Shown in pieces: positions 871-8,991 of a stretch of 64,000 bases of DNA; position 1 is the first letter of the stretch; each line of letters opens with the position of its first letter. This stretch comes from Haloglomus litoreum. Lineage in GTDB: Archaea > Halobacteriota > Halobacteria > Halobacteriales > Haloarculaceae. A program made the position numbers and the translations under genes. The DNA is taken from NCBI RefSeq assembly GCF_029338515.1, contig NZ_CP119988.1, positions 4,278,001 through 4,342,000 of the forward strand. The letters run 5' to 3'. The notes under the pieces are model-generated. The model was not told the DNA's origin. It did no database searches and saw only the letters and a program-made list of their open reading frames with translations.

Positions 871-1107
871 TCAGGCCCTCGTGATCTCGACGTGCCACTC
901 CCCGGGGGCCGGTTTGGCCGTCTCGTGCTCGAAGCCGCGGTCCTCGAGCACACCGTAGAGCGGCTCCGGCTCGAAGCTGTTGATCAGCAGCAGCGACTCC
1001 CCGTCGGGCAGTTCGTCGAGCGCGGCCATGATGTCCTCGAACGGCTCGCCGTCGATCGCCCGCGCGTCCAGTTCCCTGTCCGGGTCGTCGAATCCTTCCG
1101 AGCGCAT
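871..1107 (-). CDS. Single-domain DUF2249 protein
   Basis: A 78-residue acidic protein consisting of one DUF2249 domain: an ARAIDGEPFEDIMAALDEL-like opening, a central SLLLINSFEPEPLYGVLEDRG segment (in place of the commoner NDHDPKPLY) and a closing PGEWHVEITRA strand. DUF2249 domains have no firmly established biochemical role but are frequent near respiratory and nitrogen-oxide genes in haloarchaea (recalled knowledge). It is divergent from the four-domain DUF2249 gene at 1316. A CGAT-N4-TTCG box at 1145-1156 lies 37 bp before the start, and a TATA-like GCATAGTT sits between box and start. Family call is firm, function unknown. Confidence 0.85.
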   Translation of the reverse strand: MRSEGFDDPDRELDARAIDGEPFEDIMAALDELPDGESLLLINSFEPEPLYGVLEDRGFEHETAKPAPGEWHVEITRA

Positions 1108-1144
1108 ACCCGACCGTCGGCACGGGTCGAACTATGCGTTCGCC

Positions 1145-1156
1145 CGATGATGTTCG
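1145..1156 (-). promoter_or_regulatory. CGAA-N4-TTCG family box for the DUF2249 gene
   Basis: CGATGATGTTCG, one mismatch from the CGAA-N4-TTCG inverted repeat found in front of seven other genes in the first 9 kb. The gap to the start codon at 1107 is 37 bp. A TATA-like element (GCATAGTT on the minus strand, about 1131-1138) lies directly downstream, so the box sits just upstream of the basal promoter, an activator-type position. Confidence 0.6.
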
Positions 1157-1261
1157 TGCCGGGCGAGACCTCGGTAGCTGCCGGCTCGAACCCGAAGGGC
1201 AGTCGCCTCTGCGACCGTCCCGCCGTCGGACCCCCGACTCGACCACCGTCGAGTTCGATGC

Positions 1262-1273
1262 CGAAGCGATTCG
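1262..1273 (+). promoter_or_regulatory. CGAA-N4-TTCG box for the four-domain DUF2249 gene
   Basis: CGAAGCGATTCG is a perfect match to the shared inverted repeat. It ends 42 bp before the ATG at 1316, and a TATA-like GTAATACG follows at about 1281-1288. Confidence 0.7.
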
Positions 1274-1315
1274 GCACCGGGGTAATACGTCCGCTGCGAG
1301 AACAGGGAGGCCGAG

Positions 1316-2410
1316 ATGGGAACCGAACTCGAGTTACGGGATCGCGCGAGGGAAGAGTACCGCGAACTACTGTTCGACGCGCTGACGGACGCGGATGTCG
1401 GAGAGACCATCGAGATCGTGGCGGATCGAGACCTCGACGTCCACCTCGTTCGGTATCAGATCGAGCGCGACAGGGGCCTGGAGTGGACGTACGCGGACCC
1501 CGATGACGAACCGAGGGAGTTGCAGGTGACGAAAGGCGCCACGCTGGACGGCGACCTCGGGGCCATCGACGTCCGTGACCTGCGACCCCAGCGGCGACAC
1601 CAGGCGCTGCTCACCACCTTCGACGAACTCGAGGTCGGCGAGGGGTTCGTCCTCGTCAACGACCACGACCCGAAGCCGCTGTATCACGAGCTCAAGTCGA
1701 TGCACGGCGACGTGATCGACTGGGAATACAGGAGCCGCGGCTCCGATGGGTGGCGCGTCGAGGTCGTCAGGACTGCCGAATCGGATGCCGTCGACACGGA
1801 CGTCGTCACGCGGTACGACGTCCGGGAGATCCCCAAGGAGGAACGACACCCGACGATCCACCACCGGTACGGGATGATCCCCGAGGGCGGGACGCTGGAG
1901 CTGATCGCCCCGCACGAGCCGCGGCCGCTCCACCGGGAGTTCCACCAGCGATACGGCGACTCGTTCTCCTGGGCGGTCCTCGAGGAGGAACCGGGGCGCT
2001 GTCGCGTGCACATCACGAAGGGCGACGAACCCGACGGGGACGTCGAATCGAGCGGTTCCACGGACGCGGACGCGGAGGAGGTGGCGACCGGAGCGGCGCC
2101 GGACGACGGGACAGTCGAGGTCATCGAGGAACTGGACGTCCGGGACCTCCCACCCGCCCGGCGCCACGAGCGAATCTTCGACGGATACGCCGACCTCGAA
2201 GCCGGTACCGGCTTCGTCCTCGTCAACGATCACGACCCCAAGCCGCTGTACCACCAGTTCGAGGCCGAGGCGGGACCGGAGTTCCGCTGGGAGTATCGGC
2301 AGAAGGAGCCCGGCGAGTTCAGGGTGTTGATCGGCAAGTCCGACGGGGGCGACCGCGACGCGGCCGTGGGCCGAGAGCCCACGGCGGACGGACCGGAGCC
2401 GCCGTTCTGA
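1316..2410 (+). CDS. Four-domain tandem DUF2249 protein
   Basis: 364 residues containing four DUF2249-like units at about 1-73, 83-152, 166-236 and 273-341, separated by short acidic linkers (the longest, at about 237-272, is rich in Asp, Glu, Ser and Ala). Units 2-4 each begin with a DVRxL/IP-type strand followed by an RRH or ERH segment. Units 2 and 4 share the identical core NDHDPKPLYH, unit 3 has APHEPRPLH, and unit 1 is the most diverged (ADRDLDVHLV). The repeated His/Asp core could bind a metal or a small ligand, but this is inference. It is transcribed divergently from the single-domain DUF2249 gene, and both carry the same upstream box. The ATG at 1316 fits the promoter spacing. Confidence 0.85.
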   Translation: MGTELELRDRAREEYRELLFDALTDADVGETIEIVADRDLDVHLVRYQIERDRGLEWTYADPDDEPRELQVTKGATLDGDLGAIDVRDLRPQRRHQALLTTFDELEVGEGFVLVNDHDPKPLYHELKSMHGDVIDWEYRSRGSDGWRVEVVRTAESDAVDTDVVTRYDVREIPKEERHPTIHHRYGMIPEGGTLELIAPHEPRPLHREFHQRYGDSFSWAVLEEEPGRCRVHITKGDEPDGDVESSGSTDADAEEVATGAAPDDGTVEVIEELDVRDLPPARRHERIFDGYADLEAGTGFVLVNDHDPKPLYHQFEAEAGPEFRWEYRQKEPGEFRVLIGKSDGGDRDAAVGREPTADGPEPPF

Positions 2411-2564: not shown

Positions 2565-2576
2565 CGAAGGCATTCG
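2565..2576 (+). promoter_or_regulatory. CGAA-N4-TTCG box for the HTH regulator gene
   Basis: CGAAGGCATTCG is a perfect inverted-repeat match ending 38 bp before the ATG at 2615. The spacing equals that at the other regulon members and so supports ATG 2615 rather than the in-frame GTG at 2594. Confidence 0.68.
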
Positions 2577-2614: not shown

Positions 2615-3082
2615 ATGTCCTCGGAACCACAGATAGGGACGGCCCCATCGCCCGCACCCTCACTGGTGGACATCGAGCGGGGCGCGGCACGCTACCTCTT
2701 CGCCATCGCCGTCCTTTCGCGCTCCGGGACGGGCCGGGTCACGACCGGCGAACTCCACGAACACCTGGGCGTGGCCCAACCAAGCGTCTCCGGGATGGTG
2801 TCGAAGCTCGACGACCGTGGGCTGGTCGACTACGAGAGGTACCAGGGCGTGACGCTCACCGACCGGGGCGAGGCCCTCGCCAGGCAGGTCGGCTGGCGGC
2901 TCTGTGTCGTCTCCACCTTCTTCGACTCGGAGCTGGATACGACGCTCGACGACAGGGTGGCGTTCGACATCGGCTTCGTGCTGCCGGAGCGTGGGGTACG
3001 CCGGCTCCGGGAACTCGTCGGGTCGGCATGTCTGGGGCGCTGCCCGGAGGCGAACGGTGAGGCCGAGCGGTGCGTGGCCTGA
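2615..3082 (+). CDS. DtxR/MarR-like winged-helix transcriptional regulator
   Basis: 155 residues. A winged helix-turn-helix occupies roughly residues 22-85: RYLFAIAVLSRSGTGRVTTGELHEHLGVAQPSVSG is split by a turn, followed by MVSKLDDRGLVDYERY and a wing ending in LTDRGEALARQV. This order and the phrase GVTLTDRGE are typical of DtxR/MntR metal-dependent repressors. The C-terminal part (about 95-155) ends with two Cys residues near SACLGRC. It could sense iron, manganese or redox state. A DtxR-type box lies 500 bp downstream at 3567, before the cupin pair. The start at ATG 2615 is preferred over GTG 2594 because of the upstream box spacing. MarR is an alternative family label. Confidence 0.7.
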   Translation: MSSEPQIGTAPSPAPSLVDIERGAARYLFAIAVLSRSGTGRVTTGELHEHLGVAQPSVSGMVSKLDDRGLVDYERYQGVTLTDRGEALARQVGWRLCVVSTFFDSELDTTLDDRVAFDIGFVLPERGVRRLRELVGSACLGRCPEANGEAERCVA

Positions 3083-3157: not shown

Positions 3158-3442
3158 TCACTCCGGATCCAGCGTGACGAAGTACGGCCCGTCCCAGTCG
3201 GTCACCCACTCCGGGGCTGCCGGGTGGTCCCGGAGCCGGTTCGCCTCGTACGATTCGTTCTCGAAGGGCTGGCCCGATGGGTCGGTTCCATCGGCCCACG
3301 GAACCGTGAAGCTGACCGGGTCTCGGTCGTCGGTCGGAATCAGCTGTTTCCGTCCCCGTTCGTGGGCCTTGCCGCCCGAATCGACCCACTCCTGGGGATG
3401 GAACGTCACCTGGATACCCGACCCGGATTCGACCTCGGACAT
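3158..3442 (-). CDS. Conserved hypothetical protein, 94 residues
   Basis: An acidic soluble protein without a recognised domain. It opens with GSGIQVTFHPQEWVDSGG, contains RGRKQLIPTDDRDPVSFTVPWADG and ends with APEWVTDWDGPYFVTLDPE. Trp and aromatic residues are unusually frequent for its size, and there is no signal peptide or membrane segment. Its promoter carries two boxes of the shared CGAA-N4-TTCG family (3480-3491 and 3509-3520), placing it in the same regulon as the oxidase and DUF2249 genes. The ATG at 3442 is supported by the 37-bp box spacing. No function is proposed. Confidence 0.75.
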   Translation of the reverse strand: MSEVESGSGIQVTFHPQEWVDSGGKAHERGRKQLIPTDDRDPVSFTVPWADGTDPSGQPFENESYEANRLRDHPAAPEWVTDWDGPYFVTLDPE

Positions 3443-3479: not shown

Positions 3480-3491
3480 CGAAGGTGTTCG
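3480..3491 (-). promoter_or_regulatory. CGAA-N4-TTCG box, proximal site of the 3158-3442 gene
   Basis: CGAAGGTGTTCG, a perfect match to the half-sites, 37 bp upstream of the minus-strand start at 3442. Confidence 0.65.
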
Positions 3492-3580: not shown

Positions 3581-3643
3581 ACCGGTAGGGCGGGACCGCA
3601 TCATCGATCGCCCCGGTTCACCGGGGAGGCGGTGGGGGAAGAT

Positions 3644-4024
3644 ATGACGGCGACCGACTTCGACGCGGAGCGCTCGTACGACGACGGGCAGTTCTCCGCG
3701 GTCGAGGTGTTCCGCAGCGACCGGATGAAGGTCGTCTGCGGGTATTTCGAACCCGGGCAGTTCATCCCGGTCCACGCCCCGTCCAGCGACGTGGCGATCC
3801 ACGTTCGCTCGGGGACCGGACTCGTCCGCGACGGCGACGAGGAGCACCGCGTCGAACCGGGCGACGTGGTCGTCGTCGAGGCAGAGGCCGACCGGGGTGT
3901 CAGAGCCGACGCCGACACGCGGCTGGAGGCCCTCCTCGTCACCGCACCGCCGCCGACCGACGCCGAACACGGACCGGTCCGCGAGGGACTCCGGCGGAAC
4001 GAGTTCGACCCACACGACCAATGA
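3644..4024 (+). CDS. Cupin-domain protein (first of a pair)
   Basis: 126 residues with one small cupin barrel. FEPGQFIPVHAPSSDVAIHVRSGTGLVRDGDEEHRVEPGDVVVVEA spans both cupin motifs, but the first motif has only one of the usual two histidines (PVHAPSSD). Metal binding may therefore be altered or lost. The ATG at 3644 is preferred over GTG 3632, as it follows a purine-rich GGGGAAG. The stop overlaps the next cupin start by four bases (ATGA), so both are translated together. Likely a small-molecule-binding or sensing protein under DtxR-type control. No substrate can be assigned. Confidence 0.75.
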   Translation: MTATDFDAERSYDDGQFSAVEVFRSDRMKVVCGYFEPGQFIPVHAPSSDVAIHVRSGTGLVRDGDEEHRVEPGDVVVVEAEADRGVRADADTRLEALLVTAPPPTDAEHGPVREGLRRNEFDPHDQ

Positions 4025-4326
4025 CCACGATCCACGATCTCGACGAACTGAAGGGACAGCCCCACGCGAACGTCTTCCCCGACGCGGAGCCGAAGACGGT
4101 CAGACTCACGCTCGACGCCGGGGGAGAGGTCGCTCCCCACAGTCACCCGGGCAGGGAGATCGTCCTCTACCTGATCGAGGGACGGATCGAGTTACAGGTC
4201 GGGGAGGAGACGGACGAACTGACTGCGGGCGACATCGCCCGATTCGACGGCGATCAGGAGATCTCGCCCCGGGCCATCGAAGCGAGCACCGCGCTGATCG
4301 TCCTCGCACCCCGATCGGACGACTGA
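4021..4326 (+). CDS. Cupin-domain protein (second of a pair)
   Basis: 101 residues forming a single cupin_2-type barrel. LDAGGEVAPHSHPGREIVLYLIEGRIELQVG contains the HSH...E metal-binding pattern of motif 1, and ELTAGDIARFDGDQEISPRAIE holds motif 2, in which the usual His is absent. Unlike its partner it keeps the canonical first-motif histidines. It is coupled to the upstream cupin by an ATGA overlap. Such pairs may form a heteromeric sensor or isomerase, but no reaction is evident. Confidence 0.8.
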   Translation: MTTIHDLDELKGQPHANVFPDAEPKTVRLTLDAGGEVAPHSHPGREIVLYLIEGRIELQVGEETDELTAGDIARFDGDQEISPRAIEASTALIVLAPRSDD

Positions 4327-5804: not shown

Positions 5805-5816
5805 CGAACATGTTCA
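5805..5816 (-). promoter_or_regulatory. CGAA-N4-TTCG family box for the oxidase-like membrane protein gene
   Basis: CGAACATGTTCA, one mismatch in the second half-site, 39 bp upstream of the ATG at 5765. The CATG spacer makes GAACATGTTC fully symmetric, as at 3509 and 8980. Confidence 0.6.
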
Positions 5817-6182: not shown

Positions 6183-6362
6183 TCAGGCACTCGGGCCGCC
6201 CGTCCAGGTCCAGACCACGCTCTGGAGCGACTTCGCCGCGAAGTAGCCGACGAGAGCCCACAGGGCCGCCGCATCCGGTCCCTGCACCAGGAGCCCCACG
6301 ATCGAACACAGGCCGGCAGCCACGAGTCCGGGACGACGCTGCACCGACGAGCGCAGTTGCAT
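6183..6362 (-). CDS. Small membrane protein, 59 residues
   Basis: The frame encodes a basic N-terminus (MQLRSSVQRRPG), a hydrophobic segment (LVAAGLCSIVGLLVQG), a short turn with an Asp, a second hydrophobic segment (AALWALVGYFAAKSL) and the Trp-rich end SVVWTWTGGPSA. It thus looks like a two-helix membrane protein. The start is strongly supported because a perfect CGAATCCGTTCG box lies exactly 38 bp upstream (6401-6412), as for the neighbouring regulon genes. It could be a small accessory or assembly subunit for the oxidase encoded nearby; that role is inference. No homologous family was recognised. Confidence 0.65.
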   Translation of the reverse strand: MQLRSSVQRRPGLVAAGLCSIVGLLVQGPDAAALWALVGYFAAKSLQSVVWTWTGGPSA

Positions 6363-6400
6363 GTGCTCACGGTGGCGGTGCTCCGGGTTGGGGTTTCGTC

Positions 6401-6412
6401 CGAATCCGTTCG
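6401..6412 (-). promoter_or_regulatory. CGAA-N4-TTCG box for the 59-residue membrane protein gene
   Basis: CGAATCCGTTCG, a perfect half-site match, 38 bp upstream of the minus-strand ATG at 6362. It lies 18 bp from the oppositely used box at 6431, so the two genes are divergently transcribed from paired boxes. Confidence 0.62.
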
Positions 6413-6430: not shown

Positions 6431-6442
6431 CGAACATCTTCG
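6431..6442 (+). promoter_or_regulatory. CGAA-N4-TTCG box for the MIP18-like gene
   Basis: CGAACATCTTCG, a perfect half-site match, 38 bp before the ATG at 6481. The spacing selects ATG 6481 over the in-frame ATG at 6361. Confidence 0.6.
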
Positions 6443-6480: not shown

Positions 6481-7104
6481 ATGCCGGGCTTCCCATCCCC
6501 GTTCGGCGGCGACGGCGGCGCGCTGTTCGAGAGCTACGGCGAGTTCGTACCCGAGAACCTCCCGGAGCCGGGGCCGTTCCTCGAAGGGCACGACGTGCTG
6601 ACGGGGCGCGAGCACGCAGCGTTCCACCGCCTGACGCGGGCGCTGTTCGAGGAGCGGACGGTGTACGACATGACGTTCAACTACAACCTCGCCCGGCTGA
6701 ATCTGGACACGCGCCACGAGAGCGCCGGCTACCGCTACGCCGTCGAGCGCGGGGACGCCGACGACGCCATCGAGGACGACGGCGTGGACCGCGTCCTCCG
6801 CGCGGAGTTCACGCCGACGACCCCGTTCTGCCCGCAGACCCACACGCTGACGATCGGGTCGTTCCGGGCGTGGAACGGCCTCGCGGACCGACACGAGTAC
6901 GACCTCGTCCGGGTCCGCGCGGCCCCGATGCACCACCAGAGCGTCGCCATCAACGACCAGCTCGCGGAGCTGGAACGGACGTACCTCGAGACCGGCGATG
7001 CGACCGCCGAGCCCGAGGAGAGCGTGGCAGTCGGGTCGACCCCGGGGGAGGGAGCCATTGGGAACGAGGGGAGTGGCCGGGAGGTCCCCGACGCGCCGTT
7101 CTGA
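6481..7104 (+). CDS. MIP18/DUF59-like conserved protein
   Basis: 207 residues, soluble and acidic. The segment FTPTTPFCPQTHTLTIGSF (about residues 104-122) resembles the FTPTIPHCSMATLIGL signature of eukaryotic CIA2/MIP18 and bacterial DUF59 (SufT-like) proteins, which help insert iron-sulfur clusters and carry one reactive Cys. It is preceded by a helical domain with HAAFHRLTRALFEERTVYDMT and followed by RVRAAPMHHQSVAIND. The C-terminal 45 residues are a low-complexity acidic tail. Placement among respiratory genes and under the shared promoter box suits a metal-cofactor assembly or repair role, but the resemblance is short. The 40 residues before ATG 6481 look non-coding and were excluded. 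Confidence 0.6.
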   Translation: MPGFPSPFGGDGGALFESYGEFVPENLPEPGPFLEGHDVLTGREHAAFHRLTRALFEERTVYDMTFNYNLARLNLDTRHESAGYRYAVERGDADDAIEDDGVDRVLRAEFTPTTPFCPQTHTLTIGSFRAWNGLADRHEYDLVRVRAAPMHHQSVAINDQLAELERTYLETGDATAEPEESVAVGSTPGEGAIGNEGSGREVPDAPF

Positions 7105-7186: not shown

Positions 7187-8941
7187 CTACTCGTCCGCCG
7201 ACCCGTCCTCGGAACCGCCGTCCGCCAGGGCCGGCTCCCGGCGCCGGTCGAGCCAGCGCCACTCCCGGGTCAACAGCCCCTGCTCCGCCAGGTCCCAGGG
7301 GTCGCCGCTCTCGATCTCGACACCCTCGAGCCACGACGTGACGACGTTCCAGAGGAAGATGAGCTGTCCGGCGACGAGCAGGTAGACGCCGAGCGTCGCG
7401 AGCTGGTGGAGGTCCGTGAAGTACGCGACGGGACCGACGGACAGCTCGTAGCTCGCGTAGCGCCGGGGCATCCCCCCGTAGCCGAGCATGATCATCGGGA
7501 AGAACGTCACGTTCGTCCCGACCATGGTGAGCCAGAAGTGCCACTTCGCCAGCGTCCGCTGGTACCACCGACCCGTCACCAGCGGGAACCAGTAGTAGAC
7601 ACCGGCGAAGACGGCGAAGGCGATGCCGCCCATGATGACGTAGTGGAAATGCGCCACGACGTGGTAGGTGTCGTGGAGCACTAGGTCGACGGGGACGGCG
7701 GCCTCGAACACGCCGGTGATGCCGCCGACGACGAAGTTCGCTATGAACCCGATGCAGAACAGCATCGGCGCCCGCAACCGGAGGCTCCCGTTCCACATCG
7801 TGGTGATCCAGTTGAACGTCTTCACCGCGCTCGGGACGGCGATGGCGATGGAGACGGCCATGAACGAGGCCCGGATACGCGGGTCGATGCCCGTGCTGAA
7901 CATGTGATGGGCCCAGACGCCGAACGACAGGACACCGAGCGCGAGCGTCGAGTAGACGACGAACTTGAAGCCGAACAGCTTCCGCCCGGAGAACCGCGGG
8001 ATGATGTAGCTGATCAGCCCCATCGGGGGCAGGACGAGGATGTACACCTCGGGGTGGCCGAAGAACCAGAACAGGTGCTGCCAGAGGATCGGCGACCCAC
8101 CGTCGACCGCGAAGAACGTGGTGCCGAAGTTCCGGTCCAGCAGCAGCATGACCAGCGCGCTTCCGAGCAGCGGGAACGCGAAGATGATCTGCACCGACTG
8201 GACCAGGACCGTCCACGAGAAGATGTCGAGGTTCGCCCAGTTCACCTCGTCGTCGCGCTCGACGAAGATGGTCGCGACGAAGTTGATGGCGCCCATCGTC
8301 GCGCTGACGCCCGTCAGATGGAGCCCGAGCAGCATCAGGTCCACGCCGGGGTTCGACTGCTCGACCGAGAGCGGCGTGTAGATGGTCCAGGCGGTCTGTG
8401 CCCCCTCGATGCCGACGTTGAGCGGCGCGAGGAGCAACCCACCCCAGATGAGCAGCGCTCCCGGCGGCAGCAACCAGAACGCGATGGCGTTGATGCGAGG
8501 GAACGCCATGTCGTCGGCCCCGATGAGCAGCGGGATCATGTAGTTCGAGAACGCCGCCAGGATCGGCGTCCCGAACAGGAACAGCATCGTGATACCGTGA
8601 CTCGTCAGGAGTGCGTTGTACAGCGCCGGGTCGAGGAGGTCGGCCGGTGGCGTCACGAGTTCCGTCCGCATCAGCGTGACCGCGACACCACCCCAGGCGA
8701 ACGAGAGTACCGCGAAGACCCCGTACATGAGACCGATATCCTTGTGATCGACAGTCGTGAGCCAGCGCGCGATTCCTGTCGGTTTCTCACGGTGGTCGCG
8801 CTCGCGCCGGTCCCCGACGACGAAACCGCCGCCGGGAGTGTACGAGCGCCACGTCACGGTACGGCTGAGCAGGCTACCGACGACCACCAGAAGGACCCCC
8901 ATCACGAGCGTGGAGGCGAGGGAGACTGCGCCAATCGCCAT
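7187..8941 (-). CDS. coxA: aa3-type cytochrome c oxidase subunit I (heme-copper oxidase)
   Basis: 584 residues, 12 or more membrane helices plus an N-terminal hydrophobic segment. Key positions are present: His115 (low-spin heme, SHG), FGHPEVY with CuB ligand His296, proton-channel Glu298 and cross-linked Tyr300, CuB ligands His345-His346, K-channel Lys374 (SAVKTFNW), and HFH with His431 (high-spin heme) and His433 (low-spin heme). This is an A1-type, proton-pumping terminal oxidase that reduces oxygen to water in the cytoplasmic membrane. No subunit II (CuA) or III gene lies beside it, so it must recruit partners encoded elsewhere. A GGAACATGTTCG box 38 bp before the ATG at 8941 groups it with the neighbouring regulon. 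Confidence 0.95.
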   Translation of the reverse strand: MAIGAVSLASTLVMGVLLVVVGSLLSRTVTWRSYTPGGGFVVGDRRERDHREKPTGIARWLTTVDHKDIGLMYGVFAVLSFAWGGVAVTLMRTELVTPPADLLDPALYNALLTSHGITMLFLFGTPILAAFSNYMIPLLIGADDMAFPRINAIAFWLLPPGALLIWGGLLLAPLNVGIEGAQTAWTIYTPLSVEQSNPGVDLMLLGLHLTGVSATMGAINFVATIFVERDDEVNWANLDIFSWTVLVQSVQIIFAFPLLGSALVMLLLDRNFGTTFFAVDGGSPILWQHLFWFFGHPEVYILVLPPMGLISYIIPRFSGRKLFGFKFVVYSTLALGVLSFGVWAHHMFSTGIDPRIRASFMAVSIAIAVPSAVKTFNWITTMWNGSLRLRAPMLFCIGFIANFVVGGITGVFEAAVPVDLVLHDTYHVVAHFHYVIMGGIAFAVFAGVYYWFPLVTGRWYQRTLAKWHFWLTMVGTNVTFFPMIMLGYGGMPRRYASYELSVGPVAYFTDLHQLATLGVYLLVAGQLIFLWNVVTSWLEGVEIESGDPWDLAEQGLLTREWRWLDRRREPALADGGSEDGSADE

Positions 8942-8979: not shown

Positions 8980-8991
8980 GGAACATGTTCG
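8980..8991 (-). promoter_or_regulatory. CGAA-N4-TTCG family box for coxA
   Basis: GGAACATGTTCG, one mismatch in the first half-site, 38 bp upstream of the coxA ATG. The intervening minus-strand sequence begins GGAAACCCCCTTTACC, a poor TATA match consistent with activator dependence. Confidence 0.62.

Follow-up and report, generated by a model that had tools for sequence, protein, structure and literature searches.

Four reductases of haloarchaeal denitrification are known, while the accessory proteins of the pathway remain largely unidentified, and we know of no membrane microprotein in archaeal denitrification that is comparable to the one described here. Small accessory subunits, CcoQ-like subunits for example, are familiar components of haem-copper oxidases and NO reductases. 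With regard to regulation, the denitrification promoters of Haloferax mediterranei carry the semi-palindrome CGAAYATDKTYG (PMC10062603, PMC11218638); the motif is present in the nir, nor and nos promoters and its mutation reduces nor and nos promoter activity (PMC10062603). DUF2249 genes are among those induced in denitrification, and the DUF2249 proteins DrpA and DrpB of Thermus have been proposed as nitrate sensors (PMC11218638).

Here we examine a gene encoding a protein of 59 residues in Haloglomus litoreum, located in a stretch of 64,000 nucleotides (NZ_CP119988.1, positions 4,278,001 to 4,342,000) that we refer to as the window. The explanation that we favor as a whole, and to which we give a probability of roughly 0.4, is that this is a gene of a denitrification-type regulon whose product would have a docking or assembly role within an NO/denitrification module.

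The 59-residue gene and its product

The initial annotation held that promoter spacing reveals a membrane protein gene at this position (Table 1), and in this it was right: the frame is almost certainly a real protein-coding gene. Translation of the open reading frame gives MQLRSSVQRRPGLVAAGLCSIVGLLVQGPDAAALWALVGYFAAKSLQSVVWTWTGGPSA. Convincing homologs were found only in haloarchaea, where 16 genera at least, from five families, have the gene. A profile search of 292 genomes of the class located it in 37, a count that is a lower bound, as a limited number of candidates was scored per genome, and whose weakest few matches are less certain. Close relatives (90% identity) are carried by two genomes of the same genus, and a scan of named genomes yielded three relatives, among them one in the close relative Haloglomus halophilum. 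A phylum-wide sample contained no convincing relative outside the class; a match in genome G380, which lies outside it, was rejected, since it is a hydrophobic tail belonging to a longer protein and has no box. Selection on the protein is purifying, with dN/dS of about 0.26-0.30 against the same-genus relatives and 0.23-0.54 in pairs with enough changes.

A tblastn search of PLSDB plasmids identified homologs in Haloarcula hispanica (WP_023843008.1; homolog HAH_RS18480), Halorhabdus tiamatea (WP_008528591.1) and Halomicrobium mukohataei (WP_012807408.1) with 36-46% identity to the protein in the window. All three are RefSeq "hypothetical proteins" without a name, domain or assigned function, and their RefSeq starts are the same as those predicted from the promoter box. 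The frame had been described as too short for usual gene calls, which is not generally true given that these relatives are already called in plasmid records. It had also been suggested that a lack of conserved homologs in syntenic genomes would count against the gene; homologs do exist, with synteny that is partial, extending to the two same-genus genomes and to Halorhabdus tiamatea, which has the same three genes.

AlphaFold models the product as a helical hairpin (mean pLDDT 73) with helices at residues 11-27 and 29-54, in agreement with the two hydrophobic segments originally described. The basic N-terminus that was also described is not conserved across the homolog family, and to call the C-terminus Trp-rich was an overstatement, there being two Trp residues near it of which the first alone is widely kept. 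Near-invariant positions in the family alignment are limited to G23, G39, F41, K44 and S48; no Cys, no His and no other obvious ligand is conserved in the alignment, and C19 is not invariant. At curated cut-offs the protein in the window matched no family in Pfam or NCBIfam, 26 members of the family gave no consistent Pfam or NCBIfam assignment, and a fold search with the protein returned no relative.

Table 1. Features of the window in the vicinity of the 59-residue gene
Feature	Position	Strand	Basis or remark
59-residue gene, two-helix membrane protein	6183..6362	minus (6362 to 6183)	homologs, dN/dS, AlphaFold, start agreement with RefSeq
Palindromic promoter box of the 59-residue gene	6401..6412		CGAATCCGTTCG on the plus strand, CGAACGGATTCG on the coding strand; 38 bp before ATG
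Spacer of the 59-residue gene	6363..6400	minus	BRE-like GACGAAAC adjoining the box
Second box, CGAACATCTTCG	6431..6442		38 bp before ATG 6481 of the MIP18-like gene; also in two same-genus relatives
MIP18-like protein, 207 aa	6481..7104	plus	alignment; start fits the box rule
Box TGAACATGTTCG	5805..5816	minus	39 bp before the cox457 ATG
cox457, haem-copper-oxidase-fold membrane protein, 457 aa	4392..5765	minus	weak Pfam COX1; AlphaFold fold
Box CGAACATGTTCC	8980..8991	minus	38 bp before the coxA ATG
coxA, cytochrome c oxidase subunit I (CoxA/CtaD-like)	7187..8941	minus	Pfam COX1 E=3.7e-151; NCBIfam CtaD_CoxA E=9.5e-200
Box CGAAGGCATTCG	2565..2576		38 bp before ATG 2615 of a DtxR/MntR-like regulator (2615-3082, plus)
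Box CGAACACCTTCG	3480..3491	minus	37 bp before ATG 3442 of a 94-aa protein (3158-3442, minus)
Two DUF2249 genes	871..2410	minus (871-1107), plus (1316-2410)

As had been reported, the gene is flanked by an oxidase-fold gene, here termed cox457, and a MIP18-like gene. The MIP18 label itself was not confirmed: the protein had no match in Pfam or NCBIfam and nothing meaningful was found in a PDB profile search. It occurs in 195/292 haloarchaeal genomes and has a conserved FTPTTxFCPQ motif. Its start is most likely the ATG at 6481 and not that of the longer frame from 6361, and because of this start the two genes do not overlap. On the other side, the cox457 protein (present in 190/292 haloarchaeal genomes) is predicted by AlphaFold to have about 12 transmembrane segments, its best PDB folds being cbb3 CcoN and cNOR NorB, and a PDB profile search returned nothing. 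Since an adjacent His pair (HH) was absent from all eight cox457 relatives inspected, cox457 may not be an oxidase; from its sequence it may be a haem-copper-oxidase-fold protein without a CuB/FeB site.

Among the other genes of the window, the DUF2249 gene at 1316-2410 encodes four DUF2249 stretches and that at 871-1107 groups with DUF2249 by blastp. Two adjacent small cupin genes are found at 3632-4326 on the plus strand, and relatives of both recur near homologs of the 59-residue gene in several other genomes.

The promoter box and its distance to the start codon

A perfect box exactly 38 bp ahead of the ATG was the observation on which the gene had been proposed, and we found the box at that distance. 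Searched for as an exact sequence, the 12-mer has a single occurrence in the window, and allowing as many as two mismatches gives a count at chance level. The general palindrome CGAANNNNTTCG is over-represented (8 sites in the window, 0.9 expected), and its combination with a start codon at a downstream distance of 37-38 bp far more so (5 against 0.11 expected). Genome-wide, a pattern search for boxes at 37-39 bp from a following ATG returned 18 sites, compared with 4 for the reversed control; the 18 include four in the window and five at 123-131 kb. The latter region of the same genome (locus L057, G000:C1:116001-136000) holds a second cluster with DUF2249, MIP18-like, cox457-like, HTH_10 and rSAM genes and five boxes at the 38-bp spacing, and no copy of the 59-residue gene was found there.

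The spacing is preserved in the family as a whole. Of 34 homolog loci, 28, drawn from five families and 16 or more genera, have a perfect CGAANNNNTTCG whose distance to an in-frame start codon is exactly 37 or 38 bp. Over the same 34 loci, eleven permuted palindromes of identical composition, which were allowed the same choice among several in-frame starts, scored 0/34 and the true box at other spacings scored 0-2/34. At two of the six box-less loci a box at 38 bp precedes the same-strand gene upstream: at L112/G257 that gene starts at 7587 (box 7626-7637) and at L111/G130 it is the MIP18-like gene, which starts at 7619 (box 7658-7669) and whose stop codon, as happens in some genomes, overlaps the ATG of the small gene. 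The others are L090, L091, L092 and a locus in G028 that appears rearranged. The G028 copy (L034, 9850-10450; G028:C2, ~142000) has an upstream part that overlaps an ABC-transporter frame, and it looks rearranged or decaying.

Downstream of the box, 24 distinct promoters of the family have a BRE-like GAA and conserved C residues in common: numbered by box position, there is an A at position 17 in 23/24 and at 18 in 21/24, and a C at position 21 in 19/24 and at 23 in 20/24. No clear TATA was found in the spacer of the window genome; AT-rich, TATA-like stretches at about -26 in some of the promoters would be consistent with leaderless transcripts. Judging from these promoter sequences, the transcript of the 59-residue gene is probably leaderless. 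Such a transcript, with an activator binding immediately ahead of BRE/TATA, would fit the geometry.

It could be argued that the frame is spurious and that the box at 6401-6412 serves the divergent MIP18-like gene alone. The box does also lie 68 bp upstream of the MIP18-like ATG, and the frame is short and set in GC-rich sequence in which spurious frames abound. This scenario is hardly credible, however, as a separate box at 38 bp precedes the MIP18-like gene, the 59-residue protein is under purifying selection and the distance from box to start is constant in at least 16 genera despite different neighbors. Because the neighboring genes vary among genomes while the spacing stays, the box belongs to the 59-residue gene, and service to the divergent gene only was rejected on the same grounds.

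Genomic partners and probable membership of a denitrification-type regulon

The company that the gene keeps points to what may be an NO/denitrification maintenance module, whose members would be the MIP18-like protein, DUF2249 proteins, the haem-copper-fold protein and RIC. In Fisher tests that ignore shared ancestry, all 37 genomes with the small gene also had cox457 (37/37, 3e-8) and the MIP18-like gene (37/37, 9e-8), and 29/37 had nirK (p=0.003), which is present in 166/292 genomes overall. Since eight of the 37 have no nirK match, the link is to the module and not to nitrite reduction itself. Furthermore, the gene occurs in about 13% of class genomes and the module in about 65%, and it is therefore not essential to the module.

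Co-location with denitrification/NO genes accompanies this co-occurrence. DUF2249 proteins are the most recurrent neighbors, and a DUF2249 gene of about 77 aa follows directly downstream on the same strand at eight loci (L033, L038, L100, L101, L103, L110, L111, L112). Genes for nirK, ric, DUF2249 and NirJ/Ahb-like proteins lie near several homologs; in several genomes of one group (f12) the small gene comes directly after the MIP18-like gene, itself adjoining nirK. On pHH400 of Haloarcula hispanica the next gene is CopD-like and lies on the opposite strand; beyond it come a DtxR-like regulator, DUF2249 and ric.

The box of the 59-residue gene is a perfect match to CGAANNNNTTCG, the pattern of the denitrification-type regulon. 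With respect to the exact consensus CGAAYATDKTYG it deviates centrally and is not among the matches with at most one mismatch, whereas the boxes of the MIP18-like gene, cox457 and coxA do match CGAAYATDKTYG at that threshold. On the evidence of box, spacing and partners, the gene very probably belongs to a denitrification/low-oxygen-type regulon. As the box is of the haloarchaeal denitrification-promoter class, the inducing condition is likely to be low oxygen together with nitrate, nitrite or NO. HTH_10 regulators are encoded near several homologs, and an HTH_10 activator of the Bat/NarO type is the likely predicted binder of the box. The 14-kb neighborhood of nirK in the same genome contained no such box, which makes any tie of the small gene to nitrite reduction in this organism an indirect one.

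Possible roles of the small protein

For the protein itself we tentatively favor a putative docking or assembly role in the NO/denitrification module over, in decreasing order, a subunit of cox457, a signaling peptide and a subunit of CoxA. The two-helix hairpin would work with the maintenance module by helping to dock module proteins at the membrane, or to stabilize them there, during the assembly or repair of metalloenzymes exposed to NO. A more specific form of this proposal, in which the family would consist of two-helix membrane microproteins that recruit DUF2249/MIP18-like proteins to the membrane so that haem and copper enzymes exposed to NO are protected or rebuilt, is doubtful.

That the protein is a small structural subunit of cox457, positionally like the one- or two-helix subunits of respiratory oxidases, is rather unlikely. 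Such a role would agree with the adjacency of the two genes in this genus and in Halorhabdus tiamatea, with the presence of cox457 in every genome that has the small gene and with the cbb3/NOR-like fold of cox457. However, about 150 of the 190 cox457 genomes have no detectable small gene, so that occurrence is not one-to-one, the two genes are far apart in many genomes, and cox457 is, in having no HH pair, not a standard oxidase. A signaling or regulatory membrane peptide that senses or passes on a redox/NO signal with DUF2249 proteins is distinctly unlikely, since the family has no conserved residue of the kind that would serve as a ligand, even though the DUF2249 gene at eight loci, the HTH_10 or DtxR-like regulators at several and the DUF2249/DrpA sensor proposal (PMC11218638) all speak for it. 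The initial annotation preferred a link to the aa3-type oxidase CoxA, for which the protein would be a small subunit or an assembly factor that had been missing. In its favor, coxA is two genes away and has a box of the same class 38 bp before its start, but a coxA relative is near only six of about 30 loci and mostly non-adjacent, and the recurrent neighbors are DUF2249, MIP18-like and cox457 genes; we consider it very improbable. A membrane role beside the NO/denitrification module is the part of the earlier suggestion that is likely to stand, with coxA set aside as not being a consistent partner.

What has been gained is a conserved small-protein family with predicted starts, together with its promoter element and a few candidate partners (MIP18-like, DUF2249 and haem-copper-fold proteins), all of it open to experiment in haloarchaea that can be manipulated genetically, Haloarcula hispanica among them. 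The rule of 37-38 bp from box to start is also a practical finder for further leaderless small genes of the regulon.

Among described families, HIG_1_N and the glycine-zipper 2TM family of Pfam share the two-helix hairpin, and a few members of the small-protein family match them, below threshold and not significantly (best E 0.58 and 0.053, respectively). CcoQ-like accessory subunits resemble the protein in being small, membrane-embedded and encoded beside an oxidase-fold protein, but there is no match in sequence or fold, and the present family is two-helix, sporadic and not bound to one oxidase gene. A further likeness is found in the promoter: the box (CGAA-N4-TTCG) and CGAAYATDKTYG of Hfx. 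mediterranei are of the same 12-bp semi-palindrome class, although the central bases are variable in the former (mostly CGAAYNNRTTCG), unlike in CGAAYATDKTYG, and the distance to the start is 37-38 bp as opposed to 66-79 bp to the ATG in nir, nor and nos of Hfx. mediterranei. Compared in this way, the 59-residue gene is an unnamed, new member of an already known regulon.
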